This document shows positions 43,100 through 62,727 of a DNA stretch of 64,000 nt, one piece after another. Source of the DNA: Halorussus vallis (lineage in GTDB: Archaea; Halobacteriota; Halobacteria; Halobacteriales; Haladaptataceae). Below the pieces are notes generated by a model. That model was not told the DNA's origin, ran no database searches, and was given only the letters and a program-made list of their open reading frames with translations. The first letter of the stretch is position 1. Each line of letters begins with the position of its first letter. The stretch is from contig NZ_CP100000.1 of NCBI RefSeq assembly GCF_024138165.1, forward strand, positions 1,302,001-1,366,000, given 5' to 3'. The translations under genes and the position numbers were made by a program.

Positions 43100-43732
43100 T
43101 CAGGCGTTCTCCTCGATGGCGGCTTTGACGTCCTCCCACACCTCGTCGGGAGTCTGCTCGCCGTCGATGCGGATGAGGTCGCCGCGCTCGTCGTAGAACT
43201 CCACGACCGGTTCGGTGTTCTCGTGGTAGACCCGGATGCGCTCGCGGACCGTCTCCTCGGTGTCGTCCTCGCGCTGGACGAGTCGCTCGCGGACCGCCTC
43301 GTCGTCCGGCATGTCGAACTCGACGTGGTAAATGTCGCCCGTCTCGGGGTCGAGGCGACGGCCGGTGAGTCGCTCGACGAGTACCTCCTCGTCGACGTCG
43401 AGGTACAGCACGACGTCGAGGTCGGTCATCTCCGAGAGCGTCTCGGCCTGGTCGAGATTCCGCGGGTAGCCGTCGAGCACGTAGCCGTCGGCCTCGTCGA
43501 GGGCGGTGTCGACGATCTCGTTGACGACCTCGTCGGGGACGAGTTCGCCCTGGTCCATGTACTCGCCGGGCGTGTCGTACTCAAGTCCGAGGTGGCCGAT
43601 GTCCATCTCCTTGTTCGCCCGGAGCGCGTCGCCGGTCGTGACGTGCTCGACGCCGAACTCCGAGACGATGTTGTCGCTCTGGGTTCCTTTGCCCGCGCCC
43701 GGCGCACCGAGTATCAGAATGTGCGGCTCCAT
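43100..43732 (-). CDS. adk: Adenylate kinase
   Basis: Interconverts 2 ADP with ATP and AMP. The 210-residue protein is the long, bacterial-type form: P-loop [11 protein letters not shown] at residues 8-18, AMP site [13 protein letters not shown] and [15 protein letters not shown], and a LID segment [46 protein letters not shown]. The ATG at 43732 is preferred over the upstream in-frame ATG because it gives the standard N-terminus and is ~26 nt from a TATA-like TTTATGC. It normally follows secY directly; here secY is about 19.4 kb away. Confidence 0.95.
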
Positions 43733-43881
43733 GTACCGAGAACTGCACCGCCCACGCATAAAGGCTTAAAGAAACCGGACGGAATTCGGGGAATCTCCCT
43801 CTGTCGGTGTGGTTTTACATTCTCGTTCCTGTGACTACGTTCGGCTATGGATTTCGTGCCTGCACTTCGTGGAACGGTATT

Positions 43882-43953
43882 TTTGGTGAACGAAGCGCCC
43901 TGCTTGCACTTCACCAAAGGGTGTTTTTGACGGACGAAGCGCCCTGCTTGCAC
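43882..43953. repeat. Two 20-bp direct repeats, the first inside a hairpin
   Basis: ACGAAGCGCCCTGCTTGCAC occurs at 43890-43909 and 43934-43953 with no mismatch. The first copy is enclosed by TTTGGTGAA (43882-43890) and TTCACCAAA (43910-43918), forming a long stem; each copy also contains an internal AAGC/GCTT pairing. Both are preceded by a T5 run (GTATTTTTGG, GTGTTTTTGA). This looks like tandem copies of a small structured unit. Confidence 0.7.
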
Positions 43954-43981
43954 GATGCAAATGAGTCCCGCACCGCGACAG

Positions 43982-44222
43982 CACCGCAACCACACGCCTC
44001 CCCAACCGACTCCTTCGTTCGCTAACGCTCACTCGGTCGTCCCTCGCACGTGAAGGCGCGACACGGGGTCGCGCCAGCGCGCGCCGGTGACCCAAACCCG
44101 GTACCGCGAACCTCCACGGCCGCGGTGGCGCGTGCGGTCGCGCCCCTCGTGGGTGCGACGTAACCGCGCGAGGGCCGAGGACCGCAGTCGACTGGGGAGG
44201 CCTGTGGCTGTGGCGGTACGGT
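43982..44222. repeat. ~240-bp element bounded by a long imperfect inverted repeat
   Basis: The left end (43982-44013, containing CACGCCTCCCCAACCGACT) pairs with the right end (44183-44222, containing AGTCGACTGGGGAGGC) over more than 30 bp with few mismatches. Inner segments also pair (GTCCCTCGC 44039-44047 with GCGAGGGCC 44168-44176). The element fills a 670-bp gene-free region between adk (starts 43732) and the gene at 44404. It has no ORF of interest; it may be a non-autonomous mobile element or a structured RNA. Confidence 0.6.
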
Positions 44223-44403
44223 ACTCAGTTGTGGAGTGTGAGTAGCGGTCGCAGTGGTGTTAGGTCGTAGCCGTCACACAGGCTCGGTCGTATCGTAGTC
44301 GCGGGAGTACTACGGTCCTTTCACATCGGTTTCGACCCTCACTGCAACGTACTGACTCCGCGAAAAGTCGACCTTTTTCAGCCGGCCGGACCTACCGGGA
44401 ATC

Positions 44404-44799
44404 ATGACCCGATTCGACGCCGACGTCCCCGACGAGCGCCGCGAACTGTACGCCGAGGCCATCGAGGCCCACCGCGAGCGGGCCAGCGCGTACGCGACTC
44501 TCGAAGCCGACGCCGACGCCACCGACGAGGAGGAGGAACTCCCGCCGTGGGTCCAGTTCGGCGAGAACCTGCTCAACCTCGACTGCACCGAGGCGGAACT
44601 CGACGCGCTGAAGGCGTTGCTGGGGGAGTTCCCGGCGTTCGAGATAGACGACATCACCCGACCCGAGGAGGCCGAGGGCGTCAACGTCCGCGTGTCGGCG
44701 CTGGCCGACCCCGACCGAATCGCCCAGTGCATCGAGGCGGTGTTCCGGGACGTGTACGACCAACCCGAGGACTTCCGGGTGTGGGCGGCGTCGGTCTGA
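44404..44799 (+). CDS. Conserved haloarchaeal hypothetical protein
   Basis: A 131-residue acidic soluble protein: an N-terminal helix (ERRELYAEAIEAHRERASAYATLEADADA), an acidic linker, LPPWVQFGENLLNLDCTEAELDALKALLGEFPAFEIDDIT, and a C-terminal region VNVRVSALADPDRIAQCIEAVFRDVYDQPEDFRVWAASV. I do not recognise a named family with confidence. A TATA-like CCTTTTTCAG lies ~29 nt upstream of the ATG. Placed between the inverted-repeat element and two tandem regulators. Confidence 0.65.
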   Translation: MTRFDADVPDERRELYAEAIEAHRERASAYATLEADADATDEEEELPPWVQFGENLLNLDCTEAELDALKALLGEFPAFEIDDITRPEEAEGVNVRVSALADPDRIAQCIEAVFRDVYDQPEDFRVWAASV

Positions 44800-44941
44800 G
44801 CCGACCGGCGAGACGGTGGGCGGTCGCGGTGCCGGCATCACGACCGATGCCGACCACCGGTGCCGACCCCGGTGCTGACCTCCGACGCCGACCCCATCAC
44901 CGCCGAACGCACTTAATAGCTGTACGTGGTACTCGGAGTCG

Positions 44942-45598
44942 ATGAGCCTCATCGCCGAGTTCTCGGTGCCGGCCGATAGCTTCGCGCTGGCGGAGTCGCT
45001 CGCGGCGACCCCGAACATCCGCGTCGAAGTCGAGCGGCTCGCGACCCACAGTCGCGAGTGGGTGATGCCGTTCGTCTGGGCATCCGGCGACGACGTCGAC
45101 GCGTTCGGCGACGCGCTGGCCGACGACCCGAGCGTCGCCGAGGCCGAGGTACTCGACGAACTCGACGGTAGTTCGCTCTTCGTGGTGCGGTGGGCCGAGT
45201 CGGTCGAGCGGCGGGTCGACGAGATGATAAACCGCCACGCTATCGTCCGGCAGGCGATAGCCAGCGACGGCGAGTGGTTCCTGAAGCTCCGGTTCGCCGA
45301 GGACGACCAGCTCTCGGCGTTCCAGGACCACTTCGAGTCCGAGTCGTTCACGCTCCACCGCAAGTACCGCACGGCCGAACCGAAGGACGGCGAGTTCGGT
45401 CTGACGCCCGCACAGCGCGAGACGCTCGTTCTCGCCTCCGAGATGGGCTACTTCTCGGTGCCCAGAGAGTCGACCGTCGACGACATCGCCGACCGCCTCG
45501 ACATCTCGGCGAACTCCGTCTCCCAGCGACTCCGGCGCGCCCACGACGCGCTCGTCCGCCACACCCTCGTCGTCGACGGCGGGCACCCGAGCGGCTGA
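44942..45598 (+). CDS. HTH_10 (bacterio-opsin activator type) transcription regulator
   Basis: DNA-binding regulator of the Bat family, 218 residues. The N-terminal ~150 residues are a ligand-sensing or dimerisation domain typical of these proteins (LIAEFSVPADSFALAESLAATPNIRVEVERLATHS...), and the C-terminus is HTH_10: GLTPAQRETLVLASEMGYFSVPRESTVDDIADRLDISANSVSQRLRRAHDALV. A TATA-like CTTAATAGC is ~26 nt upstream of the ATG. A perfect inverted repeat follows its stop and separates it from a close paralogue in the same orientation. Target genes unknown. Confidence 0.85.
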   Translation: MSLIAEFSVPADSFALAESLAATPNIRVEVERLATHSREWVMPFVWASGDDVDAFGDALADDPSVAEAEVLDELDGSSLFVVRWAESVERRVDEMINRHAIVRQAIASDGEWFLKLRFAEDDQLSAFQDHFESESFTLHRKYRTAEPKDGEFGLTPAQRETLVLASEMGYFSVPRESTVDDIADRLDISANSVSQRLRRAHDALVRHTLVVDGGHPSG

Positions 45599-45626
45599 AC
45601 CGACGACGACCGTCCGTCGCGCTGGC

Positions 45627-45663
45627 CCGGGTCGCCGCGGTCGGCCCGACCGCGGCGACCCGG
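45627..45663. terminator. Perfect 18-bp-arm inverted repeat after the first HTH_10 gene
   Basis: Arms 45627-45644 and 45646-45663 are exact reverse complements around one C. It lies 28 nt after the stop and is followed at once by the AT-rich promoter region of the next gene. Confidence 0.6.
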
Positions 45664-45791
45664 CATTAATATTGAACCCGAGTCCTTATGCCGTTTTTTT
45701 GGCTAGTAGTGTGATACATGGGACGGACGTCGTTCGTTACGTCGGTAATCGCGGAAGGTGGTCGTTCGACGCGCCCATCCGGGGAACCAGA

Positions 45792-46451
45792 ATGAGCGGG
45801 GTGACGGTCTTCGAGGTCGAGGTGCCGGCGTCGACGCTGGCGCTCGGGGCGACGTTCGAGCGCGCCCCCGAAATCCAGTTCGAGATGGAGCGGTTGGTCG
45901 GCGGGTCCGACGACCGGGTGATGCCGTTCGTCTGGGTGTCCGGCGTCGAGGCGTGGCGCGCCGCCGAACTCCTGGAGAACGACCCGACGGTCACCGCGGT
46001 CGAACGGTTGAGCAGTGGCGACGAGGCGACGCTGTTCGAGATCACCTTCGACGGGGGTATCCGTTCGTTCGCCGAAACCATCTTCGACCGCGGCGGCGTC
46101 GTGTTGCAGGCCGACGGCGAGGACGGCGTCTGGTCGTTCGAACTCCGGTTCGGCGACCGCACCGACGTCGGGAGCGTCTTCGACGACGACTTCTGTCGGG
46201 AGTACGGCGCGACGGTCACCCGCCTCTACAGCGACCACCAGACCGCCTCGAACGGAGTCGGGCTCACGCCAAAGCAGCGCCAGGCGCTCATGGCCGCCCA
46301 CGAGATGGGCTACTACAGCGTCCCCCGTTCGGTCGACCTCCGGGCGGTCGGTGAGAAACTCGGCGTCTCCCGGCAGGCGGTTTCCGAGCGACTCCGGCGC
46401 GCCCACGACGCGCTGGTCGAGGACCACTTCCGCGGCGCGCAGAATCGGTAA
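45792..46451 (+). CDS. HTH_10 (bacterio-opsin activator type) transcription regulator, paralogue
   Basis: A 219-residue relative of the preceding gene: VTVFEVEVPASTLALGATFERAPEIQFEMERLVGGSDDRVMPFVWVSG in the sensor domain and GLTPKQRQALMAAHEMGYYSVPRSVDLRAVGEKLGVSRQAVSERLRRAHDALVEDHF as HTH_10. The two share the VMPFVW and RLRRAHDALV blocks, which supports tandem duplication. The start at 45792 aligns with the paralogue's N-terminus; the open frame extends ~120 nt upstream without homology. The TATA-like element near 45664-45671 or 45690 would give a leader of ~75-100 nt. Confidence 0.83.
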   Translation: MSGVTVFEVEVPASTLALGATFERAPEIQFEMERLVGGSDDRVMPFVWVSGVEAWRAAELLENDPTVTAVERLSSGDEATLFEITFDGGIRSFAETIFDRGGVVLQADGEDGVWSFELRFGDRTDVGSVFDDDFCREYGATVTRLYSDHQTASNGVGLTPKQRQALMAAHEMGYYSVPRSVDLRAVGEKLGVSRQAVSERLRRAHDALVEDHFRGAQNR

Positions 46452-46554
46452 CCGCCTTCTACGACCGCCGGTCTGACGCGGACCGTCGGAGTGTTCGGTC
46501 GGCTGACTGCTTAGACGGCCCATAACGAAGGGCGCCAGTCCCGTCCGACAGTCC

Positions 46555-47505
46555 ATGGATGCCAGCCAAGCGAGCGCCCGCTGCGACGACGTGCTGACAG
46601 AGGTTTCGAACGCGGTCATCGCCGACCCGGACGTGCTCGAAACCGTGTTGACCGGCTTTCTCGCCCGCGGGCACGTCCTGCTGGAGGACGTTCCCGGCAC
46701 CGGCAAGACCCTCACCGCGCGGACCTTCGCCGCCGCGCTCGGCCTGTCGTTCGGCCGCATCCAGTTCACGCCCGACCTCCTGCCGGCCGACGTGACCGGT
46801 ACCCACGTGTTCAACGAACAGGACCGCGAGTTCGAGTTCGACTCCGGCCCCATCTTCGCAAACGTCGTCCTCGCGGACGAGATCAACCGCGCGCCGCCGA
46901 AGACCCAGGCCGCCCTGCTCGAGGCGATGGGCGAGGGGCAGGTCACCGTCGACGGCGAAACCCACGAACTGCCCGACCCCTTCTTCGTCATCGCGACCCA
47001 GAACCCCGTCGAACAGGAGGGCACCTTCCCGCTCCCCGAGGCCCAGAAGGACCGCTTCATCGTCAAGACCACGCTGGGCTACCCCGACGAGGAGGGCGAA
47101 CTCGAACTGCTCGACCGCCGACTCGCCCGCGACGAGCGCATCCCGAGCGCCGACGCCGTCTGCTCGCCCGAGGCGGTCCGGGCGATGCAGGCCGCCCCGG
47201 AGACGGTCGACGTCGAACGCGACGTCCGCAGGTACATCGCCGAGGTGGCCCGGACGACCCGCGAGGACCCCCGCGTGAAGGCGGGCGTCTCGCCGCGGGG
47301 CACCGAGCGACTGCTCGAAACCGCGCGGGCGCGGGCGGTGCTGGCCGGCCGGGACTTCGTCACCCCCGACGACGTGAAGCGAGTCGCCCCGCCCGGCCTC
47401 TCTCACCGCCTCGTGCTGACCCCTGACGCGCAGGTGGACAACGTCCGGAAGTCGACCGTGATTCGGGACGTGTTAGAGGACGTGGAAGTGCCGACGGTGC
47501 GGTAG
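46555..47505 (+). CDS. MoxR family AAA+ ATPase
   Basis: A chaperone-like AAA+ ATPase of the MoxR/RavA group, usually working with DUF58 and von Willebrand A-type proteins to mature or assemble other complexes. In 316 residues: Walker A LEDVPGTGKTLTAR at about 43-56, IQFTPDLLPADVTGTHVFN, Walker B VVLADEINRAPPKTQAALLEAMGEGQV, sensor 1 FFVIATQNPVEQEGTFPLPEAQKDRF, and sensor 2 near VSPRGTERLLETARA. A TATA-like CCATAACG lies ~30 nt upstream. The matching DUF58/DUF4129 genes are on the opposite strand from 48.4 to 52.1 kb, so the cluster is convergent rather than one operon. Confidence 0.94.
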   Translation: MDASQASARCDDVLTEVSNAVIADPDVLETVLTGFLARGHVLLEDVPGTGKTLTARTFAAALGLSFGRIQFTPDLLPADVTGTHVFNEQDREFEFDSGPIFANVVLADEINRAPPKTQAALLEAMGEGQVTVDGETHELPDPFFVIATQNPVEQEGTFPLPEAQKDRFIVKTTLGYPDEEGELELLDRRLARDERIPSADAVCSPEAVRAMQAAPETVDVERDVRRYIAEVARTTREDPRVKAGVSPRGTERLLETARARAVLAGRDFVTPDDVKRVAPPGLSHRLVLTPDAQVDNVRKSTVIRDVLEDVEVPTVR

Positions 47506-47650
47506 CGGGTCGGAGACGAATCGCGTTCGTCGAGACGGTGCTCGGATTCGATTTCTGACCATCGCCGATGCGCGGAGCGCCGCCGCCGGTCGACGCGGGC
47601 CCGGTCGACGCGGGGCCGGATTCATCCCGCCGCGGGGAGTACGTGTGGGA

Positions 47651-48385
47651 ATGACCCGGAAACGCCGACTGCGGACGCTCGACTGGGACGCCGTCGGAGG
47701 GCTCGTCGCCGCGGTCCTCGCCGTGGGGCTCCACCTCCTCAACCTCGTCCAGGAACGGTTTCTGCTGGTGATCGTGACCTCGCTGTTGGCGCTCCTGCTC
47801 TTCCGCGACCTCCGGGAGGAGACCGCGACGCAGGAACTCGCCCAGTCGGTCGCGGACACCGAACGACGGGTGGCCGAAGTCAGGTCGGCGATGACCCCGC
47901 CGCAACTCGAACTCGTGGGACCGGACTCCCTCCGGCGGGTCAGCCGACAGTTCGGGCGCGACGCCGAAGGCGACCTGGTCTGGTTCAACCTCTGTCTGCT
48001 GATGGTCAGCCGACGCGAGACGTTCGACGTCCTCGTCCGACCCGCCGTCGAGAATCCAGACGTCTCCGCGCTCCAGTTCGTCCTCGACGAGAGCCAGCGC
48101 GGACGGTGGGAATCCGACGTCGAACCGCTGCTCGCGGAGGCGGTGGACGACCGGACGTCCGTCGACGTTCACTGGCGGAACATCGACGAGAGCGTCGCGT
48201 TCATCCACACCGCCTCTGAAGGCGACGCCGCGAGCGCGCTGGTCAGTTTCTGGGGGGAACCGTTCATGGCAGAAACCCTCGACCGGGACGTGACTCGGTA
48301 CATCCTCCACGCGAAGGAGCACTCGGAACTCATCCCGCACCTCCGAGAACTGGCGCGCCGGTACCGGTTACAGTCCACCTCCTGA
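47651..48385 (+). CDS. Membrane-anchored protein of unknown function
   Basis: A 244-residue protein with two N-terminal hydrophobic spans (VGGLVAAVLAVGLHLLNL and FLLVIVTSLLALLLF), a helical linker (EETATQELAQSVADTERRVAEVRSAM), and a cytoplasmic domain of ~160 residues (LVWFNLCLLMVSRRETFDVLVRPAVENPDVSALQFVLDES, then HWRNIDESVAFIHT and FWGEPFMAE). The last pattern is reminiscent of phospholipase-D-like or prokaryotic toll-independent sensor domains, but I see no catalytic HKD. ATG 47651 was taken; a GTG two codons upstream is possible. Located between MoxR and its DUF58 partners. Confidence 0.6.
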   Translation: MTRKRRLRTLDWDAVGGLVAAVLAVGLHLLNLVQERFLLVIVTSLLALLLFRDLREETATQELAQSVADTERRVAEVRSAMTPPQLELVGPDSLRRVSRQFGRDAEGDLVWFNLCLLMVSRRETFDVLVRPAVENPDVSALQFVLDESQRGRWESDVEPLLAEAVDDRTSVDVHWRNIDESVAFIHTASEGDAASALVSFWGEPFMAETLDRDVTRYILHAKEHSELIPHLRELARRYRLQSTS

Positions 48386-48452
48386 CGGTTCGGGGGGACT
48401 CCGTTCGCCTCGTACCGTCCGAACGACGGAGACGAGACGCCCGCGACCTCGC

Positions 48453-49148
48453 TCAGTTGTACAGCGCCACCGCCAGCGAGATGGCGCCGCCCAACAGCAG
48501 CGCCAGCGCCGCGAGCGAGACGCCGGTCACGTTCAGGTCGTAGACGCCCACAGCCCCGACGACCGCCAGCAGCGCCACGGCGAAACTCGCGCCGCCGTGG
48601 ACCGCCTCGACCGTCCACGTCCGGGCGCCCCGTCCGACCTGCTGGCCGAGGCTGACGGCGTTCTTTCCGGCGTCCCACGACAGTATCGCGGCGGCCATCG
48701 ACCAGAGGACGTCTATCTTGGTCGCCTCCTGCATGATGACCGCGGCCATGACGCAGATGGCCAGCCACGCGAGGCCGACCCCGAGGAGGCGTCGCTCCCA
48801 CCCCGCTCGCACCGGAACGAGCGCGGCCGCGACGAACGCCACGCCGACCACGCCCGGCAGGACGACGACCTTCTCGGAGAAGGACGGCGGGGCGCTCCAG
48901 GCGTAGCCCACCGCGCCGACCGCCGCCAGCGCGCCGAGGGCGACGAACGCCCACCCGAGGAAGTCCTGGTCGCGCTCGCGGACCGCCGCACCGACGCCGA
49001 AGATACCCGCGGCGACCGCGGCGAGCGCGAGCGGCGGGAGTTGACCCGACCCCGACGCGACGAACCGCACCGAGGCGAGCGCCGCCGCGATTGCGAGGAC
49101 GCTCCCCGCGAGCGTCGGCCGCTTCGAAACCGCTCCAGAGGCGGTCAC
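48453..49148 (-). CDS. Multi-span membrane protein of the MoxR cluster (DUF7519-like)
   Basis: A 231-residue membrane protein with about seven hydrophobic segments (e.g. SVLAIAAALASVRFV, LALAAVAAGIFGVGAAV, FLGWAFVALGALAAVGAVGYAW, VVVLPGVVGVAFVAAALVPV, LLGVGLAWLAICVMAAVIM, SFAVALLAVVGAVGVYDL, GVSLAALALLLGGAISLAVALY). It starts with GTG 49148, overlapping the DUF58 stop as GTGA. I associate it with DUF7519 proteins that end haloarchaeal MoxR clusters (from memory). Function unknown. Confidence 0.7.
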   Translation of the reverse strand: MTASGAVSKRPTLAGSVLAIAAALASVRFVASGSGQLPPLALAAVAAGIFGVGAAVRERDQDFLGWAFVALGALAAVGAVGYAWSAPPSFSEKVVVLPGVVGVAFVAAALVPVRAGWERRLLGVGLAWLAICVMAAVIMQEATKIDVLWSMAAAILSWDAGKNAVSLGQQVGRGARTWTVEAVHGGASFAVALLAVVGAVGVYDLNVTGVSLAALALLLGGAISLAVALYN

Positions 49149-50665
49149 GCCGACCGCCTCCGGAGCGACGCCGCGATGGCCGCGCCGAGGCGGTCGTCGG
49201 GGTCCCAGTCGACGACCGGGACGCTCGACCGCCGGAGGGCGTGGACCCGGTTCTCGCGCTCGACCCGCGCCAGCTTGTCGCCCGGCGTCTCGTCGGCAGT
49301 CACGTCGGGGCTGACGACCGACACCGAGGTGCCCCGAGCCTCGAGTTCGAGCGCGGTTTCGACCGGGAACTCGTCGGCCAGCGGCGTGACGAACAGCAAC
49401 TGGGTGTCGGCGGCGAGGCGTTTCTTGAGTTCGGTGACCTGCGACTCGACGGGCGACTGGTCGCGGTCGCGCCCGGCGTCGTCGCGTTCGCTCCCGCCGG
49501 ACCTGAACCCGGAATCGGAACCGGACTCCGCGCCGGCGCGCGACCGCCCGCCGTCGGCGACCGCTTTCGCCTTCCGCTCGGCCGCAGCGTCCTCGGCCGT
49601 GTCGGCGTCGTCGGCCGCTCCCTCGCCGTCCTCGGTCGGGTCGACGGGCGCGACGCCCGACCTGCCGGGGTCCCACGCGTCGCCGTCGGCCGAGGCCCCA
49701 CCCGCGGTTTCGGCCGCCTCGTGCTCTTCGGGGGGCACGGCCGACAGCGTCGGATGGGTCGCCAGCGTCTCCCGGGCGCGGGCGGCGTGTTCGGTGCCCG
49801 CGCCGGGCGCGAGCCAGCAGAACTCCCGGCCGATGGCCGCGATGCCGACCCGCTGGCGGGTGCCCAACAGCGCGGTGACGAGGCTCTCGGCGGCCGCCTT
49901 GCCGTAGGCGACCGCGTGGGGTTCGTCCTCGCGCGCCCGGTAGGCGGGCCGCCGGGCATCGATGCAGACGACCACGCTCGCCGCCCGTTCCTCGCGGAAG
50001 TCGACCGTGGTGAGTTCGCCGGTCCGGGCCAGGCGGTTCCAATCGATTCGGCTCATGGGGTCGCCGCGCTGGTAGCCCCGGGTCCGGTAGAACTCGACGC
50101 CCGACCCGCCCGAGTCGGTCGCCAGCGGGCCGACGCGAGCGTCGGTCTGCTGGCGGAGCGGCACCTCGGGCACGTCGGCGGTGCAGTCGATCTCCGTCTC
50201 GGTGCCGACGGTGGTCTCGACCTCGGTCGCGCCGCTCCAGTCGCGGGCGATGACCGTCGCGGGGTCGAACTGGTGGCGGCCCGCGACCGCCTCGACCTCG
50301 TAGGAGAACGTGGTCGTCGCGCCGGGTCGCAGGACCGCGGCGTGGCGCGCGCTCCCTTCCGCGACGGTGAGCATCGGGGGCACGCCGTCGACGATGCGGA
50401 CGTCCGGGAGCGTCCGGTCGCCCGTGTTGCGGAGCGTGACGGTCACCCCGACCGTCTCGCCGCTCCGGGCGCGCTCTTCGACCGCCCGCTCGATGTCGAG
50501 CGACACCGCCGGCGTCGGCGAGACGCGGGGGTACACCGCGAACGCCACCGCCACGACCGCCGAGAGGAGCGCGAGCGGTCGCTTGGCGACGATGCCGACG
50601 ACACCCGCGAACAGCGCGAGCGCGACCACGGCGCGCCACCGGTCGGTGGTCCGGGTGGTCGTCAT
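49145..50665 (-). CDS. DUF58 domain protein (MoxR partner)
   Basis: Membrane-anchored protein with two N-terminal spans (WRAVVALALFAGVVGIVA, LALLSAVVAVAFAVY), an external/beta region (LDIERAVEERARSGETVGVTVTLRNTGDRTLPDVRIVDGV) and the DUF58 signature FYRTRGYQRGDPMSRIDWNRLARTGELTTVDFREE, leading into a vWA-like fold (ASVVVCIDARRPAYRA). In its 506 residues a long acidic Ala/Gly/Asp-rich insert (about 315-400) interrupts the C-terminal domain before QVTELKKRLAADTQLLFVTPL. Starts with ATGA overlap with the upstream gene. Works with MoxR by family association. Confidence 0.92.
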   Translation of the reverse strand: MTTTRTTDRWRAVVALALFAGVVGIVAKRPLALLSAVVAVAFAVYPRVSPTPAVSLDIERAVEERARSGETVGVTVTLRNTGDRTLPDVRIVDGVPPMLTVAEGSARHAAVLRPGATTTFSYEVEAVAGRHQFDPATVIARDWSGATEVETTVGTETEIDCTADVPEVPLRQQTDARVGPLATDSGGSGVEFYRTRGYQRGDPMSRIDWNRLARTGELTTVDFREERAASVVVCIDARRPAYRAREDEPHAVAYGKAAAESLVTALLGTRQRVGIAAIGREFCWLAPGAGTEHAARARETLATHPTLSAVPPEEHEAAETAGGASADGDAWDPGRSGVAPVDPTEDGEGAADDADTAEDAAAERKAKAVADGGRSRAGAESGSDSGFRSGGSERDDAGRDRDQSPVESQVTELKKRLAADTQLLFVTPLADEFPVETALELEARGTSVSVVSPDVTADETPGDKLARVERENRVHALRRSSVPVVDWDPDDRLGAAIAASLRRRSA

Positions 50666-51255
50666 CGCCGCACCTCCGTGGCCTTCTCGGCGATGGCAGT
50701 GGCGGTCCGGCGCGCCCCGCGCTGGAATCCGGATTCACCTCGGAGGGCGGCCCGAACGTCGCCGGCGAGGCCGAGCGACGGCGACTCGCTGACGAGGAAC
50801 GACGCCGCCGCCCGGTCGTCGGTCCACTCGCCGGCCTCGACGCGCCGGCGAGCGGTTTCGCGGTCGCAGTCGTCGGCCCGCATCGTCGTCTTGACCGCGG
50901 TTTCGCGGAGTCTGTCGCGCATCTCGTCGGCGTCGTCGCCGAACAGGCGCTCGCGAATCGTCAGACCGTCGTCGACGTAGCGGTCGAACTCCGCACCCGG
51001 CCGAGGGCCGGAGGTAACCTCCTCGGGGTCCGGCGGGGCCGACTGGGAAACCTCCGAAACCGCCCGGAGGCCGACGACCGCGAGGGTGACGACGGCCGCG
51101 ACGGCCGCGAACACGACGACGAAGAGGTAGTCGTTGCCCACCAGCGACACGAGGGGGTCGACCGGCAACGGGACCGGCATCCCGAGGAGCGCCCCGAGCG
51201 CCAGGCCGACCGCGAGGCCGCCGGCGAGGCCGAAGAGGTAGCGCAGCGACTTCAT
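50662..51255 (-). CDS. Membrane protein of the MoxR cluster (DUF7269-like)
   Basis: A 197-residue protein with two N-terminal spans (YLFGLAGGLAVGLALGALLGM and YLFVVVFAAVAAVVTLAVVGLRAV) and a cytoplasmic helical domain (FDRYVDDGLTIRERLFGDDADEMRDRLRETAVKTTMRADDCDRETARRRVEAGEWTDDRAAASFLV). It matches my recollection of DUF7269 in haloarchaeal MoxR clusters. ATGA overlaps with both neighbours (51252-51255 and 50662-50665) show tight translational coupling. Function unknown. Confidence 0.72.
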   Translation of the reverse strand: MKSLRYLFGLAGGLAVGLALGALLGMPVPLPVDPLVSLVGNDYLFVVVFAAVAAVVTLAVVGLRAVSEVSQSAPPDPEEVTSGPRPGAEFDRYVDDGLTIRERLFGDDADEMRDRLRETAVKTTMRADDCDRETARRRVEAGEWTDDRAAASFLVSESPSLGLAGDVRAALRGESGFQRGARRTATAIAEKATEVRR

Positions 51256-52130
51256 CGGTCGTCACCTCGCTCGTCGCCGGCCGAACCGTCGCTCGGACCG
51301 CCCCGTCCGTCGTACCCCTCGCCCGCGCCGTCGGTCGCGGGGCGACCGCCGCCGCGCAGATTCTCCCGGCCCTCTCTGGCCCGGCGCTCGCGGTCGTCGG
51401 TCACGTCGGCGCCGCGGTAGCGCACCGCCTCGAACTCGCGGGTGATGGTCTCGACCGCGTCGGGGTCCATCCCCTGTTCGACGGCGGCGTCGGCGTACTC
51501 CTCGGTGGTCGTCGCCCGCGGCCGGTCGACGTGGGTTCGGCGGGCCAGCGAGAGCCACGACCGCTGGACCTCGTCGCCGGGGTCGGTGTCGGCCCACGGT
51601 CGGCCGGGACCGCCGTCGCCGTCGTTCCGGCCCGAGGGGGAGAGCGCGGCCAGGAGCGCCGCGATTCGGTCGCGGTAGCGGTAGGCCAGTCCCCCGAGCA
51701 GGGCGAGGACGAGGAGGAGCGGCCCCCACTGCTTCAGGAACGCGAGCAGTTTCTCGAGCAGGCTCTGCTTCTCGACGGTCGGGTCCGTCTTCGCCTGCTT
51801 CTGTTGCTGTTGTTGTTGCTTTTGCTGCTGTTTCTGCTTTTGCTGTTGGGACTGCTGTCGTTGCTCGCCCTGTTTCTGGGCCTGGGCTTGCTTTTCGTTC
51901 TTCTTGTGGGCCTGGCGCTTCTGGTCGCCGGAACCGGCGGCCGCGCCCGTCCCGTCGGACTGGAACTCCTTCTTGAACTGCCTGGCGTCCTCCTGGCTTA
52001 TCGGGACCTGGTCGTGGGAGAGCACGTCGTCGGGAGTCGAGGAAACCGACGATTCGAGCGTGGTCGCCGACATACCGACGGCGGCGATACACAGCAGTCC
52101 GACGACGGCGGAGACGAGCGTGTCGTTCAT
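51252..52130 (-). CDS. DUF4129 domain protein with Gln/Lys-rich spacer
   Basis: First gene of the four-gene MoxR-partner operon. The 292-residue precursor has an N-terminal hydrophobic signal or anchor (LVSAVVGLLCIAAVGM), an external polar region, a striking ~50-residue Gln/Lys repeat tract (residues ~70-115, mostly QKQ and QQQ), a transmembrane span WGPLLLVLALLGGLAYRY, and a C-terminal cytoplasmic DUF4129 domain (VQRSWLSLARRTHVDRPRATTTEEYADAAVEQGMDPDAVETITREFEAVRYRGADVTDDRE). The DUF4129 motif TTTEEYA and FEAVRYRG are typical. In other archaea DUF4129 proteins carry transglutaminase domains; none is present here. Confidence 0.88.
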   Translation of the reverse strand: MNDTLVSAVVGLLCIAAVGMSATTLESSVSSTPDDVLSHDQVPISQEDARQFKKEFQSDGTGAAAGSGDQKRQAHKKNEKQAQAQKQGEQRQQSQQQKQKQQQKQQQQQQKQAKTDPTVEKQSLLEKLLAFLKQWGPLLLVLALLGGLAYRYRDRIAALLAALSPSGRNDGDGGPGRPWADTDPGDEVQRSWLSLARRTHVDRPRATTTEEYADAAVEQGMDPDAVETITREFEAVRYRGADVTDDRERRAREGRENLRGGGRPATDGAGEGYDGRGGPSDGSAGDERGDDR

Positions 52131-52611
52131 GGTGAACGTGGAACCGAGTCGTCACAGGCTAGTCCTGCGGGTCGTTTAGTTATAAGGCGGATAACGACAC
52201 GGAAATGGACAATCGCAGGCCGTGACGGCGGATTTCCTCGGGAACGGCCCCGAGCGGCGGTCGAACCGGCGGTCCGGCCGTCAGCGGCGGTCGACTAACG
52301 ACACCGAAAGCGCTCCCGTGAACCGTTTTCTCCTCGGGAGTCGGGGAGGTTCGGCGGTGTCGTCTCCGGGGACTTCGGCCTCGAGACGGTCGGCGTCAGG
52401 CACCGCCTGTAGCCGGGTTTGTCAACGGTTTCAGATTTTCAGACGGTGATTGACGGGGGGCTGATAGCCCGCGTCCGCGTGCCGGGGTCGGGAATTCGCG
52501 CGGGCGGGCGGTCGACGCCGCCGCATCGCCAACCATCATATAAGTTATAAACTTCAAATTGAACTCGAAACCAGTAACCTTTTAAGAGGTGCATAGGACC
52601 TTGAAATCGGC
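52131..52611. other. 480-bp divergent intergenic region
   Basis: No gene seen. It holds the promoter of the DUF4129 operon (AT-rich TTTAGTTATAAGG near 52176-52188) and of the beta-helix gene (CTTTTAAG at 52579-52586, ~29 nt before its ATG). An AT-rich partial palindrome AAGTTATAAACTT lies at about 52542-52554. The middle part (52200-52500) is GC-rich without clear structure. Confidence 0.45.
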
Positions 52612-55098
52612 ATGGCACGCGACACTGCGGGCGACCGACGAGAGCGGTCGTCCCTCCACCGCAGAGACTACCTAAAGTTAGCCGGCGCGGCGGCCACCTC
52701 GGCCGCCGCCGCGGGCGCGGCAGGCGCAGTAAGTGCAGAGCGAGAACGAGTGAACGTCGTCGACGCCGGGGCCGACCCGAACGGGAACGACCCGATCGAC
52801 GGCGTCCTCCAGCGCGTCGTCGACAACGGCGTGGAAGCGTACTTCCCGGAAGGGACCTACCGGGTGAACAGCGTCCGCCTCTCGGCGAGCAACTACGCGC
52901 TCGTCGGCGACGGCGCGAAGCTGATTCCGGGCGACGAGGGCGCGACGATGCTCCACTGCTCGGGCAGCGACTGGACGGTCGACGGCTTCGAAATCGACAA
53001 CACCGTCACCGGCCGGATGCCCTACATCTGGGTCCGTAGCTCCGGCACCGACTGGACGGTCAGGAACGTGGACGTGACGGGCAAGGCCGGGGGGAGCGGT
53101 TTCCGGGTCTTCTTCGCCAGCGTCCGCGATCCCGACGCTACCGGGCGGTTCGAGAACGTCTCGGCCCCCCACGGGTCGGTCTACGGCGTCAACGCCAAGA
53201 CCACCTCGTCGGTCGGCTGTTACTACGTGAGCCAGCACCACGTCGGCACGCTGACGCTCGACAACGTCGACGTCCGGAACTTCTGGAGTCGGGGCATCTA
53301 CCACTCCGGCGTCTCGACCGGCGCGGTCCGCATCGTCAACTCCTACTGGGAGAACAACCGCGTCAACGTCCGACTCGCCGGCAAGGACTGCGTGGTCCGG
53401 AACACGACCATCAAGCAGACGATGAACAAGCCCGGTCCGAACTACTGCGTCTGGCTCCGGGCAAACCGCCAGTCGCCGTCCGAGAAGGTCCACGCCCAGG
53501 CGTACAACGCCCTCATCGAGGACTGCGACCTCATCGTCGACGGGACGAACTCCGACGATCCGCCCCAGCAGGCCTCGGCGGTCAACGCCGGGACGGGCCA
53601 CTCGAACCAGTACTTCGGCAGTTTCGCGGTCCGGAACTGTCGGATTCGCGTCGAAGGCGCGAACGCCCACGCCGGCGTCGAGGCCGGTCCGCAGTCGTAC
53701 CCGACCGCCACCTCCGGCCGACCGCCCGAGGGCGTCATCGTCGAGAACTCCACCATCGTCACCGACGGCGACACCGACGGCGTCGCCATCGAGGGCCGGA
53801 GCGACTGCGTGGTCCGGTCGAACTGCATCGACGCGGGCGGGCGCACCCTCGACTTCGCGAACTCGACGGTCGACACCAGCGACATCACCCGCGGGTCCTG
53901 CTCGCTGTCGGGCGACGCGGGCGGGTCCGACCTCCCGAACCTCCTCACCGTCTCCGGCGGCGGCGGGGGCGACCTCGTCGAGTACAAGGTCGCCGTCAGC
54001 GGCGAACTCGGCAAGAGCACGGCCGGCGGCGCGTCCATCGACCCCGAGGACGTGATTTCGGGGAACACCGCGACCGGCGGCGTGGCCGGCGGCACCGACG
54101 CCTACCGCTTCTCGGGCGACATCACCGGCTTCGCGGCCAGCGGCGACGTCACCCTCGAACTGAACGGCCGGCAGATAGACGCCGCCTCGCTCCCGAACCT
54201 CGACGGGTCGGGGACGACCGACGAGACCACGACGCCCGAAGAGACGACGACGCCCGAAGAGACGACCACACCCGAGGAGACGACCACACCCGAGGAAACC
54301 ACTCAGGAGCCCTCGCTCCCGAACCTCGTCGCCATCTCCGGCGGCGGCGGGTCGGACCTCGTCTCCTACGAGTTCAGCGTCACCGGCGCGATGCGCCGGA
54401 GTTCGGCGGCCGGCGCGACCATCGACTCCGAGGACTCGGTTTCGGGCAACACCGCGACCGGCGGCGTGGCGGGCGGCACCGACGCCTACGCGTTCGAAGG
54501 CGCGATCACCGACTTCTCGGCCGACGGCGACGTGACCGTGACGGTCAACGGCACCGAGGTCGACCCCGCGTCGCTCGGCACGCGCGTGCTGACCGTCTCC
54601 GGCGGCGGCCCGAACGAACTGGTCGAGTACGAGGTCGCCGTCGGCGGCGACCTCGCGAAGAGTTCCGCCGGCGGCGCGAGCGTCGATTCCGAGGACGCCG
54701 TCTCGGGAAGCACGGCGACCGGGGGCGTGGCGGGCGGCACCGACGCCTACCGCTTCTCGGGCGACATCACCGGCTTCGCGGCCAGCGGCGACGTGACGCT
54801 CACCGTCGACGGAACCGAAGTCGACCCCGCGTCGCTCCCGAGCCTCGAACCCGACCTCCCCAACGCCATCGTCATCGACGGCGGCCCGCGGACGACCGTC
54901 AGCAACTACGAGTTCAAGGTCAGCGGCGACGTCGAGAAGGCCGCCGACCTCGGGTCGGTCAACGCCTACGACACGATTTCGGACGGTACCGTCTCGGGCC
55001 GGGTCGTCGGCGGCAAGGACGGCTTCCGGTTCTCGGGCAGCCTGACCGGTTTCCGCATCGACGGCACCGCCAGCGTCGAGATGAACCGCACGGACTGA
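52612..55098 (+). CDS. Secreted right-handed beta-helix protein with four C-terminal repeat domains
   Basis: An exported 828-residue protein. The Tat signal HRRDYLKLAGAAATSAAAAGAAGAVSA is followed by a pectate-lyase-3-like parallel beta-helix (about residues 45-435: VVDAGADPNGNDPIDGVLQRVVDNGVEAYFPEGTYRV at the start, then many short strands with Asn ladders such as VENSTIVTDGDTDGVAIEGRSDCVVRSN). Then come four copies of an ~85-residue haloarchaeal domain (starting near 443, 566, 653 and 741; pattern VSGGG..LVEYEVAVSG..GGVAGGTDAYRFSGDITGF..DGDVTVTVNG), with a TTPEE repeat linker between the first two. No membrane anchor. Likely a polysaccharide-binding or -cleaving surface protein; no catalytic residues assigned. 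Leaderless by promoter spacing. Confidence 0.85.
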   Translation: MARDTAGDRRERSSLHRRDYLKLAGAAATSAAAAGAAGAVSAERERVNVVDAGADPNGNDPIDGVLQRVVDNGVEAYFPEGTYRVNSVRLSASNYALVGDGAKLIPGDEGATMLHCSGSDWTVDGFEIDNTVTGRMPYIWVRSSGTDWTVRNVDVTGKAGGSGFRVFFASVRDPDATGRFENVSAPHGSVYGVNAKTTSSVGCYYVSQHHVGTLTLDNVDVRNFWSRGIYHSGVSTGAVRIVNSYWENNRVNVRLAGKDCVVRNTTIKQTMNKPGPNYCVWLRANRQSPSEKVHAQAYNALIEDCDLIVDGTNSDDPPQQASAVNAGTGHSNQYFGSFAVRNCRIRVEGANAHAGVEAGPQSYPTATSGRPPEGVIVENSTIVTDGDTDGVAIEGRSDCVVRSNCIDAGGRTLDFANSTVDTSDITRGSCSLSGDAGGSDLPNLLTVSGGGGGDLVEYKVAVSGELGKSTAGGASIDPEDVISGNTATGGVAGGTDAYRFSGDITGFAASGDVTLELNGRQIDAASLPNLDGSGTTDETTTPEETTTPEETTTPEETTTPEETTQEPSLPNLVAISGGGGSDLVSYEFSVTGAMRRSSAAGATIDSEDSVSGNTATGGVAGGTDAYAFEGAITDFSADGDVTVTVNGTEVDPASLGTRVLTVSGGGPNELVEYEVAVGGDLAKSSAGGASVDSEDAVSGSTATGGVAGGTDAYRFSGDITGFAASGDVTLTVDGTEVDPASLPSLEPDLPNAIVIDGGPRTTVSNYEFKVSGDVEKAADLGSVNAYDTISDGTVSGRVVGGKDGFRFSGSLTGFRIDGTASVEMNRTD

Positions 55099-55273
55099 GC
55101 CGACTTCCGCACTCTTCTCCCCGCTTCAGCCCCCGTCTACCGCGAGGTCAGGCGACGCGTACGGCGACGCCCCGCCGTCCCTTCGGGGACCGCAGGAGCG
55201 ACCTGTCGCACCCGCAGGTGACGTATAACAAACATGAACGACGGCATAGCGAACGGTAATCTCGTGATACACG

Positions 55274-57076
55274 ATGCCAGGTATTAGCCTCGTCAGCGGT
55301 TCCGGCGTCCCGGAGGCCGCCGCGTCGTCGGCCCTGGACGCGGTGCGCTTCACCGACGAGTACGACGCCCAGACGGCGATCTCCGACGGTCGGACGTTCC
55401 TCGGGTTCAGCGGCTATCCCGACTACCCCGTTCGGACCGTCGAGACGCCCGAAGCGCTGTTCGTCCTCGAAGGACGCCTCTACGACGCCGAGGACGAGCG
55501 CCGCGACCTCCGGACGGTCGGCACCGCGCTCCTGGACGGCCGGACCGAGGAGGTCGCCGCCTGGGCCGGCGCGCGCGACGGGGACTTCCTCCTGGTCGCC
55601 TACGAGAAGGACACCGGCGCGGTGCGCATCGTCAACGACGTCTTCGCGCGCCTGCCGGTGTACTACGCCACGGTCGGCGACGCCATCGTGGTATCGCGCG
55701 AACTCAAGTTCGTTCGGGACTTCGCCCACCACGTCGGCGACGCCCCCGACATGGACCGACTGGCGGTGGCCCAGAGCCTGCTGTTCGGCTACCGCCTCGG
55801 CGACCGGACGCTGTTCGAGTCGGTACGCCGAGTGCCACCGGGGTCGGCGCTCCACGTCGAGGACGACGCCCACGGCGGGGAGTTCGGCGTCCGAGTCGAC
55901 CGACTCCACCGCCACGACTTCGAGGGGACGCCCCACGCCAACAGGAGCGTCGGGGAGAACGCCGCCGAACTCGCCTCGCGGTTCGCCGAGGCCTGCGCCG
56001 ACCGCGACGTCCCCGGCGTCCCGAACGTCGTCTCGATGTCGGGCGGCCTCGACTCGCGGGCGGTCGGCGGGGGCTATGACGCCGCGGGCGTCGACTTCAC
56101 CGCCGCGACGTTCGAGAAGCCGGGCGGCGCGAACGACGCCGACGTCCGACTGGCCCGGGAGACCGCCGGCGTCCTCGACGTCGACTGGGAGCACTACCGC
56201 GCGGAGGGGTCCGAGGCCCACCGCGCCGACCTGCTGGAGATGAAACAGGGGATGAACTTCCTCGCCATGTCGTTCATCCTCGACTTCTTCGAGCAACTCC
56301 GCGACGCCCACGGCCCGCTGGTGTACGTCACCGGCGACGGCGGCGACAAGGCGCTGCCCGACATCACCGCGCCCCGGTCGTTCTCCTCCCGGCGGGACCT
56401 CGCGGAGTACGTCGTCGACGCCCACAGCATCTTCGACCCCGAGCGGGCCGCCGCCATCGCGGGGCTGGACCCCGAGGCGCTGGTCGACGCGGTCGAAACC
56501 CGACTGGCGTCCTACCCCGAGTCGTCCTACCAGGGCAAGTACGTCCACTTCCTCGTGCGCGAGCGCGGCATCAACTGGCTCAACCACGGCGAGGACCGCA
56601 ACCGCTACTACTTCTGGAGCGTCTCGCCGTTCTACTCGCCGCGGTTCTTCCGCTACGCGATGGGCGTCCCCGCCGCCCAGAAGACCGGAAGCAAACTCCA
56701 GGCGGCGTTCCTCGACGAACTCGACCCCGCGCTCTGTGCGGTCGACGACGCCAACTACGGCGCGCCCGTGACCTCGCTCGAACACCGGGCCAAGCAGTTC
56801 GCCGCCGGACTCGTCTGTCGGTACCCCGCGGTCAAGCGGACGGTCGCCGGACTGCTGGGCGGCGGCGGGTCGCCCGAGGGCCTCGACGACGCCATCGTCG
56901 CCCAACTCCGGCGGGCCGACCGGACGCCGTTCGCCGACGAGGCGGTCGCGTCGGTGCTCCGCGGCGAGGGCGACTACGGCGCTCGAGAGCTGTACAACCT
57001 CCTGACGGTCGCCGCGATAGCCGACCGCGAACCCGACGAGGTCGTCGAGGACGTCGCGCCGCGCCTGGTCGCGTGA
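55274..57076 (+). CDS. Asparagine synthase-like protein lacking the glutaminase cysteine
   Basis: A 600-residue protein of the AsnB superfamily. Class II amidotransferases begin MCG with Cys as nucleophile; here the start is MPGISLVSG, so the N-terminal domain cannot hydrolyse glutamine in the usual way. Elements of that domain remain (LFVLEGRLYD, ARDGDFLLVAYEKDTGAVRIVNDVFARLPVYYA). The C-terminal synthetase domain has the PP-loop VVSMSGGLDSRAVGGGY (near residues 254-270), VYVTGDGGDKALPD and FYSPRFFRYAMGVP, so it probably adenylates a carboxylate. Homologues occur in surface-glycan clusters, where they amidate sugars or peptides; this is family knowledge plus inference. Follows the secreted beta-helix gene by 175 nt. 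Confidence 0.82.
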   Translation: MPGISLVSGSGVPEAAASSALDAVRFTDEYDAQTAISDGRTFLGFSGYPDYPVRTVETPEALFVLEGRLYDAEDERRDLRTVGTALLDGRTEEVAAWAGARDGDFLLVAYEKDTGAVRIVNDVFARLPVYYATVGDAIVVSRELKFVRDFAHHVGDAPDMDRLAVAQSLLFGYRLGDRTLFESVRRVPPGSALHVEDDAHGGEFGVRVDRLHRHDFEGTPHANRSVGENAAELASRFAEACADRDVPGVPNVVSMSGGLDSRAVGGGYDAAGVDFTAATFEKPGGANDADVRLARETAGVLDVDWEHYRAEGSEAHRADLLEMKQGMNFLAMSFILDFFEQLRDAHGPLVYVTGDGGDKALPDITAPRSFSSRRDLAEYVVDAHSIFDPERAAAIAGLDPEALVDAVETRLASYPESSYQGKYVHFLVRERGINWLNHGEDRNRYYFWSVSPFYSPRFFRYAMGVPAAQKTGSKLQAAFLDELDPALCAVDDANYGAPVTSLEHRAKQFAAGLVCRYPAVKRTVAGLLGGGGSPEGLDDAIVAQLRRADRTPFADEAVASVLRGEGDYGARELYNLLTVAAIADREPDEVVEDVAPRLVA

Positions 57077-57174
57077 ACGCTCGCCCGGCGAGGCGGCGGA
57101 TTCCTCGCGATTCCTGTCCGGCGTAAGTCCGTTCACTGAAACACTCTTATCCGCCTGTTGCCTACCCACCCTGC

Positions 57175-60100
57175 ATGGGAAAGGGAAACACGGCGAACGG
57201 CGGCGACGGGCCGCGCAAACCGCCAGACGGCGGCCCCAGCGGGCCGTCGGGGCCGCCGGAACCCCCGGAACCTCCCGAGGGCGGGGCCCCGGGGTCGGAC
57301 ACTTCGGCCGACTCGGCCGCCGACCTGCGGGCAGTCCTCGACCGGACGACCGACGCGGTGTACGCGCTCGACGCCGAACTCCGGTACGTCTACGTCAACG
57401 ACGCCGGCGATACGCTCAGCCGCCGGTTGTTCGACGTCCCCTGCGAGGAGATGCTCGGCGAGGTCGTCTGGGAGGTCTACCCCGCACTCGAAGCCACGGA
57501 GCTGTACCGGGGGTGCCGCGAGGCGATGGAGACCCAGGCACCGGTCGCGTTCGAGGAGTATTACCCGCCGGGTGAGTCGTGGTTCGACGTCCGATGCCAC
57601 CCCTCCGAGTCGGGGCTGACCGTCTACGTCCGGGACGTCACCGACCGCAAGCGCCGCGAACGCGCGCTCGAACAGTTCGAGGCCATCGTCGACACCACAG
57701 CCGACGGCGTCTACGTCCTCGACGACGAGTACCGGTTCACGCTCGTCAACGACGCCTACGCCGACATGGTGGGGTACGGGCACGACGAGTTGGTCGGCGA
57801 ACACGCCTCGACGGTCCTGAACGCCGAGACGTTCGAACGGGCCGACGAGGTCCGCCGGGAGATGGGCGACGACGAGAGCGTGACCGTCGAAGTCGAGTTA
57901 CTGCGGAGCGACGGGGCGACCGTCCCCGTCGAGGGTACGCTCACGCCGTTTCCGCTGACCGACGACAGTACGGGGACGGTCGGCGTCGTCCGTGACCTCA
58001 CGGAACGACGGGCCCTCGAAGCCGAGAAGCGGGCGGTCGAATGCGAGAAGGCGGCCGCGCTGAACCGAGTGAGTGACGTCGTCTGGGCCCTCGACGCGGA
58101 GTGTCGGTACACGTATCTCAACAGCGGTGCGCGAGAGATTGCCGCCCAGTGGATCGGCGAGTCGGCCGACGACCTGTACGGGCGCGTCCTCTGGGACGCG
58201 ATTCCCGAGACGAAAGAACTCGGTATCCACGAGGCGGTCCGGCGAGCACTCGACAGTCAGGAGTGCGTCGACCTCGTCGAACACCTCCCGCAGGTCGACC
58301 GGTGGTTCGAATCGCAGCTCTACCCCTCGGAGTCGGGCGTCACCATCTACTCCCGGGACGTGACCGACCGCAAGCGACTCGAATCCGAACTCGACGACGT
58401 CCTGGACCGCATCACCGACGGCTTCTACGCGCTCGACCGGGAGTTCCGCGTCGTGCGCTGGAACGACGAGATGGCCGCCCGCCTGGGCGTGTCGGCCGAC
58501 GAACTCGTCGGCGAGAAGATCACCGAGTGCTTCCCCGAGTTCCGCGACGGCGACGTCTACCCCCGGTTCGTCGAGGCGCTTTCGACCCAGGAGGCGGTGA
58601 CCTTCGAGAACTACGAGGAGCGCTGGGGCGTGTGGGCCGAGATCACCGTCTACCCCTCGGCGGCCGGCCTCTCGGTGTACTCGCGCGACGTCACGGAGCG
58701 CAAGGAGCGGGAACTCGAACTCGAAGCGACGCGCAACCGACTCGAACTCGCGCTGACGGGGACCGACAACGGCGTGTGGGAGTGGAACCGCCGAACCGAC
58801 GAGGTGGTCTGGGACGAAACCGCAGAGCGCATCTTCGGCGTCGAACCCGGCGAGTTCGAGGGGACCGCCCAGGCGTTCTTCGAGCGGGTCCACCCCGAGG
58901 ACGCCGACCGGGTCGCCGAGTGCGACTGGGTGAGCGGTCCGGGCGCGACCTCCACCCCGCTCGAACACCGCGTCCTGCGGGACGACGGCGACGAGCGGTG
59001 GGTCGAGTGTCGCGGCCGGGTCGACGACGCCGACGCCGACCGCGTCGTCGGCCTCATCCGAGACGTGACCGACCGCAAGGAGCGCGAGCGGGAACTCGAA
59101 CGGTACGAAACCATCGTCCGGACCGCCAGCGACGGCATCTACGCGGTCGACGACGACCTGCGATTCACTCTGGTCAACGACGCCTTCGCGGAGATGACCG
59201 GCTACGACCGCGCGGAACTGCTCGACGCGGACCTCTCGCTCATCGTCGAGGAGGAGACGCTCGCGGAGTCGTTCGAGGTCAGAGAGCACATCCGCTCGGG
59301 CGAGCGCGAAGTCGGCGTCATCGCCGACGACCTGCTCCGGCGGGACGGCGAACGCCTCCCGGTGGAGTCCAGAATCGCGCTCCTGGCGGCCGACGGCGAC
59401 TACCGCGGGTCGGTCGGCGTCACCCGGGACATCTCCGAGCGACTGGAACACGAGCGCGAACTCGAAGCCCGCACGGAGCGCCTCGAATCGCTGGTCGACA
59501 ACGGTCCGCTGGTGGTGTACGCCCTCGACGCCGAGGGCCGGTTCACCCTCTCGGAGGGCGCGGGCCTCGACGCCCTCGGCCTTGAACCCGGCGAGGTCGT
59601 TGGCGAGTCGGTGTTCGACGTCTACGCCGACAACCCCGGCATCGTCGACTCCCACCGCCGGGCGCTCGCGGGCGAGACGGTCCACTCGACCCACGAGGTC
59701 GACGGGCGGGTCTTCGACAACGCCGTCAGACCCACCGTCGACGACGACGAGGTCGTCCGCGTGGTCGGCGTCGCCTTCGACGTGACCGAGCGGACCCGGT
59801 ACGAGGGGGCGCTCACGGCGCTCCACGGCACGGCGCGACGACTGTCGAGCGCCGGGTCGGTCGAGGCCGTCTTCGAGGAGGTCGTCACGGCGGCGGCGGA
59901 GATCGCCGACCTCCCGTTCACCTGCATCTACGTCCCCGACGAAGCTGCGGGTGTCCTCAGACCCACGACGTACACCGAACACGTCTCCTCCGCGCTCGAA
60001 GACGCGCCGACGGTCCCGGCCGACGACAGCATCGTTGGCGCCGTCTACGCCGCGGGGACGGCCGCCAGCTTCGACGACATCCACGAGTCGCCCGACCTGT

Positions 60101-62306: not shown

Positions 62307-62362
62307 AACGGTGTTCGAACCCCTGCCCCAGACATAGGACGCCCGCCGCGGGCGGGGGCTAT

Positions 62363-62397
62363 CTATCTAGGTGCGGGTCGCCGCGACGGCTAGATAG
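62363..62397 (+). promoter_or_regulatory. Stem-loop CTATCTAG/CTAGATAG ahead of the HalOD1 operon
   Basis: An 8-bp perfect stem (62363-62370, 62390-62397) whose loop contains a second inverted repeat (GTCGCCGCGAC). It lies 50 nt before the HalOD1 start and 57 nt after the sensor gene stop. It may end the sensor transcript or act as an operator; AT-rich CTAGATAG blocks are rare in this GC-rich DNA. Confidence 0.45.
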
Positions 62398-62446
62398 CAC
62401 GATAGAAGGGCTATCCCTCGGGGGTCCTTTGCAGAGAGTGTGAACG

Positions 62447-62725: not shown

Positions 62726-62727
62726 CG

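Follow-up and report, generated by a model that had tools for sequence, protein, structure and literature searches.

What is the gene-free element with long imperfect inverted ends that lies beside adk in the genome of Halorussus vallis, and to which known class of repeat, if any, can it be compared? We analysed it within a 64-kb stretch of DNA, here called the window. The original prediction placed the element at 43982-44222, which proved to lie within it; comparison with other copies of the same genome set the true bounds at 43947-44242, about 35 bp further out on the left and about 20 bp on the right. Its inverted ends were recovered as two ungapped stretches of 28 nt (43984-44011 and 44186-44213) that are 82% complementary. 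The whole folds, as expected, into one long hairpin: positions 43940-44260 gave a single rod of -173.5 kcal/mol, against -147.9 +/- 4.6 kcal/mol for 100 dinucleotide shuffles, none of which was as stable (z -5.5). The claim that the element is gene-free also held, since no gene was predicted between adk (43100-43732, minus strand) and a divergent plus-strand gene at 44404. It sits at the left border, the adk end, of the roughly 19.5 kb between adk (PF00406) and secY (PF00344, 63216-63998), as noted before. The genes in this interval (43733-63215) are unrelated, and two adjacent BAT/HTH_10 regulator genes (PF15915, PF04967) are found near the element at 44942-46451.

The element is built from arms that follow a common plan. 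The arm is a polar unit of about 120-150 nt, in the order core, tip2, block B, tip1, block C and tail, and its fixed blocks (core GGCGCGCGCTGG, B GCGAGGGAYGA and C TCGGYTGGGGAGG) alternate with two hairpins of variable sequence and preserved pairing. Block C is followed by a GCGGT-rich tract and, in Halorussus vallis, also by an outer block D near TACTCATTTGTATCGTGCGAG. Arms were found singly and as inverted pairs.

The window holds one copy of the family only, composed of two arms in inverted order with the cores inward. The left arm, on the minus strand, is intact. In ascending coordinates it comprises outer block D at 43947-43967 (CTCGCACGATRCAAATGAGTA-like on the plus strand, three mismatches to the D consensus of the genome), followed by block C at 43997-44009 (CCTCCCCAACCGA on the plus strand, matching the arm pattern exactly), the tip1 hairpin at 44010-44036 with its tandem G.A steps on the minus strand, block B at 44037-44047 (TCGTCCCTCGC on the plus strand, exact), the tip2 hairpin at 44055-44075 (GGCGCGAC..GTCGCGCC) and the core at 44076-44085. 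A central spacer, assigned by position, lies between the two cores (44086-44126). The right arm, on the plus strand, has decayed and lost most of tip1; it comprises a degenerate core (44127-44136), the tip2 hairpin (44137-44159), a degenerate block B (44168-44178, GCGAGGGCCGA, one mismatch), a truncated tip1 (44179-44187, GGACCGCAG), block C (44188-44200, TCGACTGGGGAGG, one mismatch) and outer block D (44222-44242, five mismatches to the D consensus). Judged from sequence, the truncation may have arisen by direct-repeat deletion from a tip of the GAGGACCGCA type, as present in other copies. As a member of the family, the window copy is old and has partly decayed. A minisatellite of two 44-bp units, 77% alike, adjoins its left end at 43857-43944 and has the word GAAGCGCCCTGCTTGCAC in common with the element edge; a longer run of similar units was seen at L040.

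BLASTN against the own genome and other haloarchaea showed the element to be multi-copy, with at least 87 matches in the own genome (40 of 158 candidates scored). Most copies are old, and the best own-genome pair among the candidates scored reached 79%. The exact B-C pattern detected 87 arms at 71 sites (68 + 3), the reversed-pattern control none. Eighty-three of these arms are on the main contig and four elsewhere (two-sided binomial p 2e-5), and the 15 exact pairs of the main contig all have their cores inward. Regular spacing, which might have pointed to chromosome architecture, was rejected, the coefficient of variation (CV) of 1.12 on the main contig being inside the random 95% range of 0.79-1.22.

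Among 81 own-genome loci fetched, 70 passed a two-block test and 11 failed; L025 was dropped as the same site as L004, leaving 69 sites, at which genes were predicted by codon usage with the window as training sequence. All 69 sites are intergenic, lying between tandem (35), divergent (19) or convergent (15) genes. The two-block test gave two arms at 19 sites and one at 50, some of the single arms having a decayed partner. Single arms between tandem genes (n=24) were sense in 10 cases and antisense in 14, and a fixed arm orientation to genes was rejected for this lack of bias. Another repeat (GGATGAAAGGGGCCGCCCGCTCGCG-like) adjoins many arms (L020, L042, L051, L052, L069, L079, L081), and a conserved stretch, GTGTCCTTTTTTGGTCCAGCTTTTTTCGAGGAG or a near variant, lies just outside the arms of L019, L022, L038 and L099.

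The expectation that related sequences occur in other haloarchaeal intergenic regions was borne out: the exact arm pattern exists in 124 of 293 genomes of the order and in 42 of 87 genera, with no hit for reversed-pattern controls, and the intergenic position was seen in the own genome and at Natrinema loci. The distribution is patchy, and many haloarchaeal genera have no arms. A species-level genome collection contained at least 120 stretches with the pattern; among the 80 loci listed, all were haloarchaeal by title except one from Desulforhopalus, which may be a chance match. Related sequence was detected in four of 72,556 plasmid records, all four haloarchaeal, while phage records contained no similar sequence and viral contigs no exact arm pattern. 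The orientation of pairs goes with the genus, core-inward in Halorussus and core-outward in Natrinema.

The two hairpins keep their pairing while their letters change. In 88 of 88 arms tip2 has a stem of 4 bp or more; its 5' strand comes in 57 versions, and shuffling gave a mean z near -3.1. Tip1 is a ladder of three Watson-Crick pairs, a G.A/A.G step, two Watson-Crick pairs, a second G.A/A.G step, two Watson-Crick pairs and then either kind. At its variable Watson-Crick positions, the 73 distinct own tips were paired in 78-99% within a copy versus 54-80% across copies, and the ladder is present, in looser form, in 83 tips of other genomes. The covariance check that had been proposed was clearly positive: for the 71 arms of the commonest length, tip1 scored 0.524 compared with 0.190 +/- 0.013 when shuffled and at most 0.145 when slid, the changes not being independent events because the copies are related. 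With the multiple copies, this removes two of the conditions that had been named as refuting, a single copy and a lack of covariation. Helix 1 of tip1 is 92.6% paired with both sides changing in seven of nine pairs, and the two mostly-G.A positions hold standard pairs in 21% of cells.

The structure is also specific to one strand. RNA folding was better for the GAGGGAYGA..TCGG strand than for its complement in 67 of 73 own tips and 70 of 83 tips of other genomes, and DNA folding in 60 of 73 and 60 of 83, with a smaller margin; tip1 with its tandem G.A steps is formable by one strand only. Wobble-type mismatches favour the same strand, with G.T 36 versus A.C 19 in tip1 (p 0.03) and 38 versus 11 in tip2 (p 0.0001), and folding the complement of the tip2 stretch gave the mirror image (7 versus 53). 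The non-haloarchaeal L150 was kept in the set of other genomes for the ladder, strand-folding and wobble counts. The suggestion of a structured non-coding RNA holds for the strand-specific structure and the strong covariation, but an Rfam search of 41-48 kb revealed no family in the element. A sub-threshold Rfam match to ZTP inside the gene at 45033 was dismissed.

At four Natrinema loci (18 sequences, 32 ortholog pairs), the tips, blocks and centre were compared straight versus swapped, with cut-offs of our own choice (0.3 summed identity for tips, 0.08 for the centre); L251 and L261, where only one arm passed, were left out of the pair counts, and another two sets of orthologs (groups 5 and 6) were inspected outside the counts. 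Some part was swapped or inverted in 13 of the 32 pairs, at three of the four loci. Both tips are swapped between L222 and L225, the centre is inverted with straight tips between L222 and L224, and tip2 is swapped between L252 and L259; in L249 and L250, of which the flanks are 91-93% identical, tip1 is swapped at 100% identity and tip2 is straight. The fourth locus showed no swap or inversion in six pairs. Because the flips are nested, re-insertion of the whole element cannot produce them. Palindrome misassembly is a possible source of error, unlikely for the tips since a stretch of about 80 bp takes in both tip1 and tip2 and is spanned by single reads. The centre of L250 has an adapter-like stretch beside N, probably an assembly artefact, and is therefore unreliable, the tips being unaffected.

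The elements are retained at orthologous places across Natrinema species, with a mean identity of about 97% in core, B and C versus about 77% in the adjacent 60-bp flanks; the blocks were higher in 31 of 32 pairs. Of 24 sequences fetched for the first Natrinema locus, four carry the element, twelve have an intergenic space of 131-182 bp and no element, two have a longer space with no arm visible, and six are without a flank. Target duplication is unreadable there, because element-free orthologous sites are only about 80% alike.

Double hairpins of 59 and 61 bp occupy the same tip1 point in L248 and L260, and the orthologs L247 and L252 are without them. Similar nested hairpins were found in about twelve own-genome arms, two levels deep in L042. 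We observed a second family of double hairpins of about 50-60 bp in arm tips or tracts of L248, L260, L270, L013, L030 and L034-L036, further carriers being L039, L042, L044, L054, L058, L073, L076 and L078. In genome G001, two arms at unrelated sites are 98.4% identical over 127 bp, one with an extra double hairpin in tip2, and the arms of L274 and L275 are identical only across a 52-bp B-C cassette. L272 and L273 (G002:C1:50600-51900 and 3581500-3582800), at opposite ends of a 3.59-Mb contig, share 1252 identical bp, probably because a circular chromosome was left with its overlap unclosed.

The arms form a family of repeats that is widespread, intergenic, polar and structure-keeping, and in which parts invert in place and hairpins nest. 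We might explain it as a REP/BIME/REPIN-like non-autonomous repeat, recognised in the form of a folded single strand and flipping between its inverted blocks, a reading that to us is as apt to be wrong as right. A nuclease or transposase that reads hairpins, supplied in trans, would recognise the strand with GAGGGAYGA..TCGGYTGGGGAGG in its folded, single-stranded state, in the simplest case as ssDNA at the replication fork. Such an enzyme would have copied arms into intergenic DNA, and recombination or template switching between inverted blocks would flip and reshuffle the existing copies. We counted in favour of the REP-like reading the abundance, the intergenic sites, the patchy spread, the tip covariation, the strand-biased wobbles and the mixed gene orientation, together with the in-place swaps, the near-identical arms of G001 and the twelve element-free Natrinema loci versus four carriers. 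Against it we counted that no enzyme is tied to the family, that most copies are old and retained at orthologous places, and that the family is very rare in plasmid records and missing from phage records and, as the exact pattern, from viral contigs. The own genome has one intact Y1 transposase domain (C1:1724435), and a Y1 transposase adjoining arms was rejected, the nearest listed arms (1649767 and 1764645) being about 40 kb or more away; no RAYT (Y1 transposase) gene flanked by arms was seen in this genome. By eye, no GTAG/CGTC tag was seen at the foot of either hairpin in own-genome arms, and the GYRG-like words that follow block D in many copies are away from the hairpins. The family has the REP/REPIN trait of a polar hairpin that occurs singly and as inverted pairs (50 single-arm sites, 19 pairs), and we do not file it as REP/REPIN because both testable defining marks, the GTAG/CGTC tag and the flanking RAYT, were not found.

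The conservation of blocks above flanks runs counter to the REP-like reading and could reflect host function. A host-maintained structured element, selected in place as RNA (sRNA or UTR module) or as a site of DNA architecture (cruciform, topoisomerase or nucleoid-protein site), is the main rival, and we consider it somewhat unlikely. It fits the 97% block identity, the positions retained across Natrinema species, the strand-specific folding with G.T tolerance and the bias of 83 of 87 arms to the main chromosome; but the arms swap and invert, lie in mixed orientation in all three intergenic classes at random spacing, are missing from many haloarchaeal genera and have no Rfam match, and conversion between copies could equally keep the blocks alike. 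It is unlikely to a greater degree that GC-rich palindromes arose passively and were corrected, inverted and lengthened through template switching and conversion between copies, with no dedicated enzyme, which agrees with nested inversions bordering in repeated blocks, with the identity of L274 and L275 confined to the B-C cassette, with the deletion-like right arm of the window copy, and with the mergers and nesting described for yeast mitochondrial GC clusters in the excerpted text of PMC4478555. A passive process alone explains neither the fixed polar block order in 42 genera nor about 70 dispersed sites.

A classical MITE of a DDE transposon is very improbable. The MITE-like character suggested at first holds as far as the element is short, non-coding, dispersed and bounded by inverted ends; however, the ends vary by genus (core-in versus core-out), single arms are common, no target duplication was found between sites only about 80% alike, and no transposon with such ends was seen, short of a systematic search. 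Assignment to the MITE class lacks support, as neither a target duplication nor a related transposon came to light and almost every copy is old and diverged. Hardly credible is a local function as regulator or terminator for adk or the gene at 44404. The element does lie between divergent genes, but a terminator and promoter scan of 43700-44450 found none (the promoter null says little for archaea, the model being bacterial), copies occupy all intergenic classes, and block C is absent upstream of adk in 15 of 18 Halorussus genomes. At the orthologous locus in G013, only about 105 bp with a short perfect palindrome separate adk from the start of the plus-strand gene, an approximate empty site; a core/tip2 remnant persists in G008, and other species have a different neighbour gene at this locus. 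The window copy probably has no specific role for adk. Since unrelated genes fill the interval from adk to secY, and since no gene lies within 700 bp upstream of adk in the three Halorussus genomes, among 18, that have arms there, the element may be the trace of a rearrangement breakpoint.

In bacteria, dispersed hairpin repeats served by enzymes of their own have been studied in depth. The REP-like reading, if true, would add an archaeal counterpart of such repeats, in which the polar unit is longer and has two hairpins and a G.A ladder specific to one strand. The family offers a concrete, testable case of nested inversion, in place, of intergenic DNA at orthologous loci and of the insertion of small hairpins into larger elements, and one folded strand would be a specific bait for the reader protein. 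We might speculate further, with more doubt than belief and well short of likelihood, on a haloarchaea-wide selfish or regulatory nucleic acid whose tandem G.A hairpin ladder is read single-stranded, and whose inverted arms are nested invertible switches beside genes, reshuffled among species through inversion in place and through the insertion of second-order double-hairpin elements into the tips.

We found no description of the family or its block sequences in open-licence PMC literature, outside which most subscription papers lie; the only match to the block sequences, an unrelated human microRNA paper, was rejected. The tandem G.A duplex d(ATGAGCGAATA)2 shares with the arms the word TGAGCGAA, present in 23 of 88 own arms, but is a synthetic oligonucleotide and not a biological element; the adjacent G.A pairs in its solution structure are reportedly of the sheared kind. 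That structure with adjacent G.A mismatches is 1992 work, represented here by its title as cited in PMC6408435.

The REP/BIME/REPIN elements with RAYT transposases (GTAG and CGTC families), in the excerpted text of PMC3733652, are like the arms in being polar hairpin units in many dispersed copies, with head-to-head or tail-to-tail dimers and with stem covariation that includes G.T pairs. Unlike them, the haloarchaeal arm is several times longer, has two hairpins and a regular tandem G.A ladder in tip1, and is without the foot tag or a tied RAYT; the REP/RAYT phyla listed in that text are bacterial, whereas this family is archaeal. The SMR, PATE and MITE repeats of Haloquadratum walsbyi are likewise haloarchaeal, transposase-free and inverted or palindromic (PMC3119063, in excerpt). 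The same excerpt reports no target duplication for SMR and PATE and has SMR-A inserting into palindromes, which resembles the double hairpins in arm tips. The HqIRS families it describes include strain-specific recent insertions, and the arm family, compared with them by description, is old and order-wide. Yeast mitochondrial GC clusters and double-hairpin elements, as far as the excerpted PMC4478555 describes them, resemble the arms in being GC-rich hairpins of intergenic DNA that undergo merging and shuffling; they are organellar, GC42 measuring 42 nt, whereas the arms are archaeal and have fixed blocks B and C and a strand polarity.
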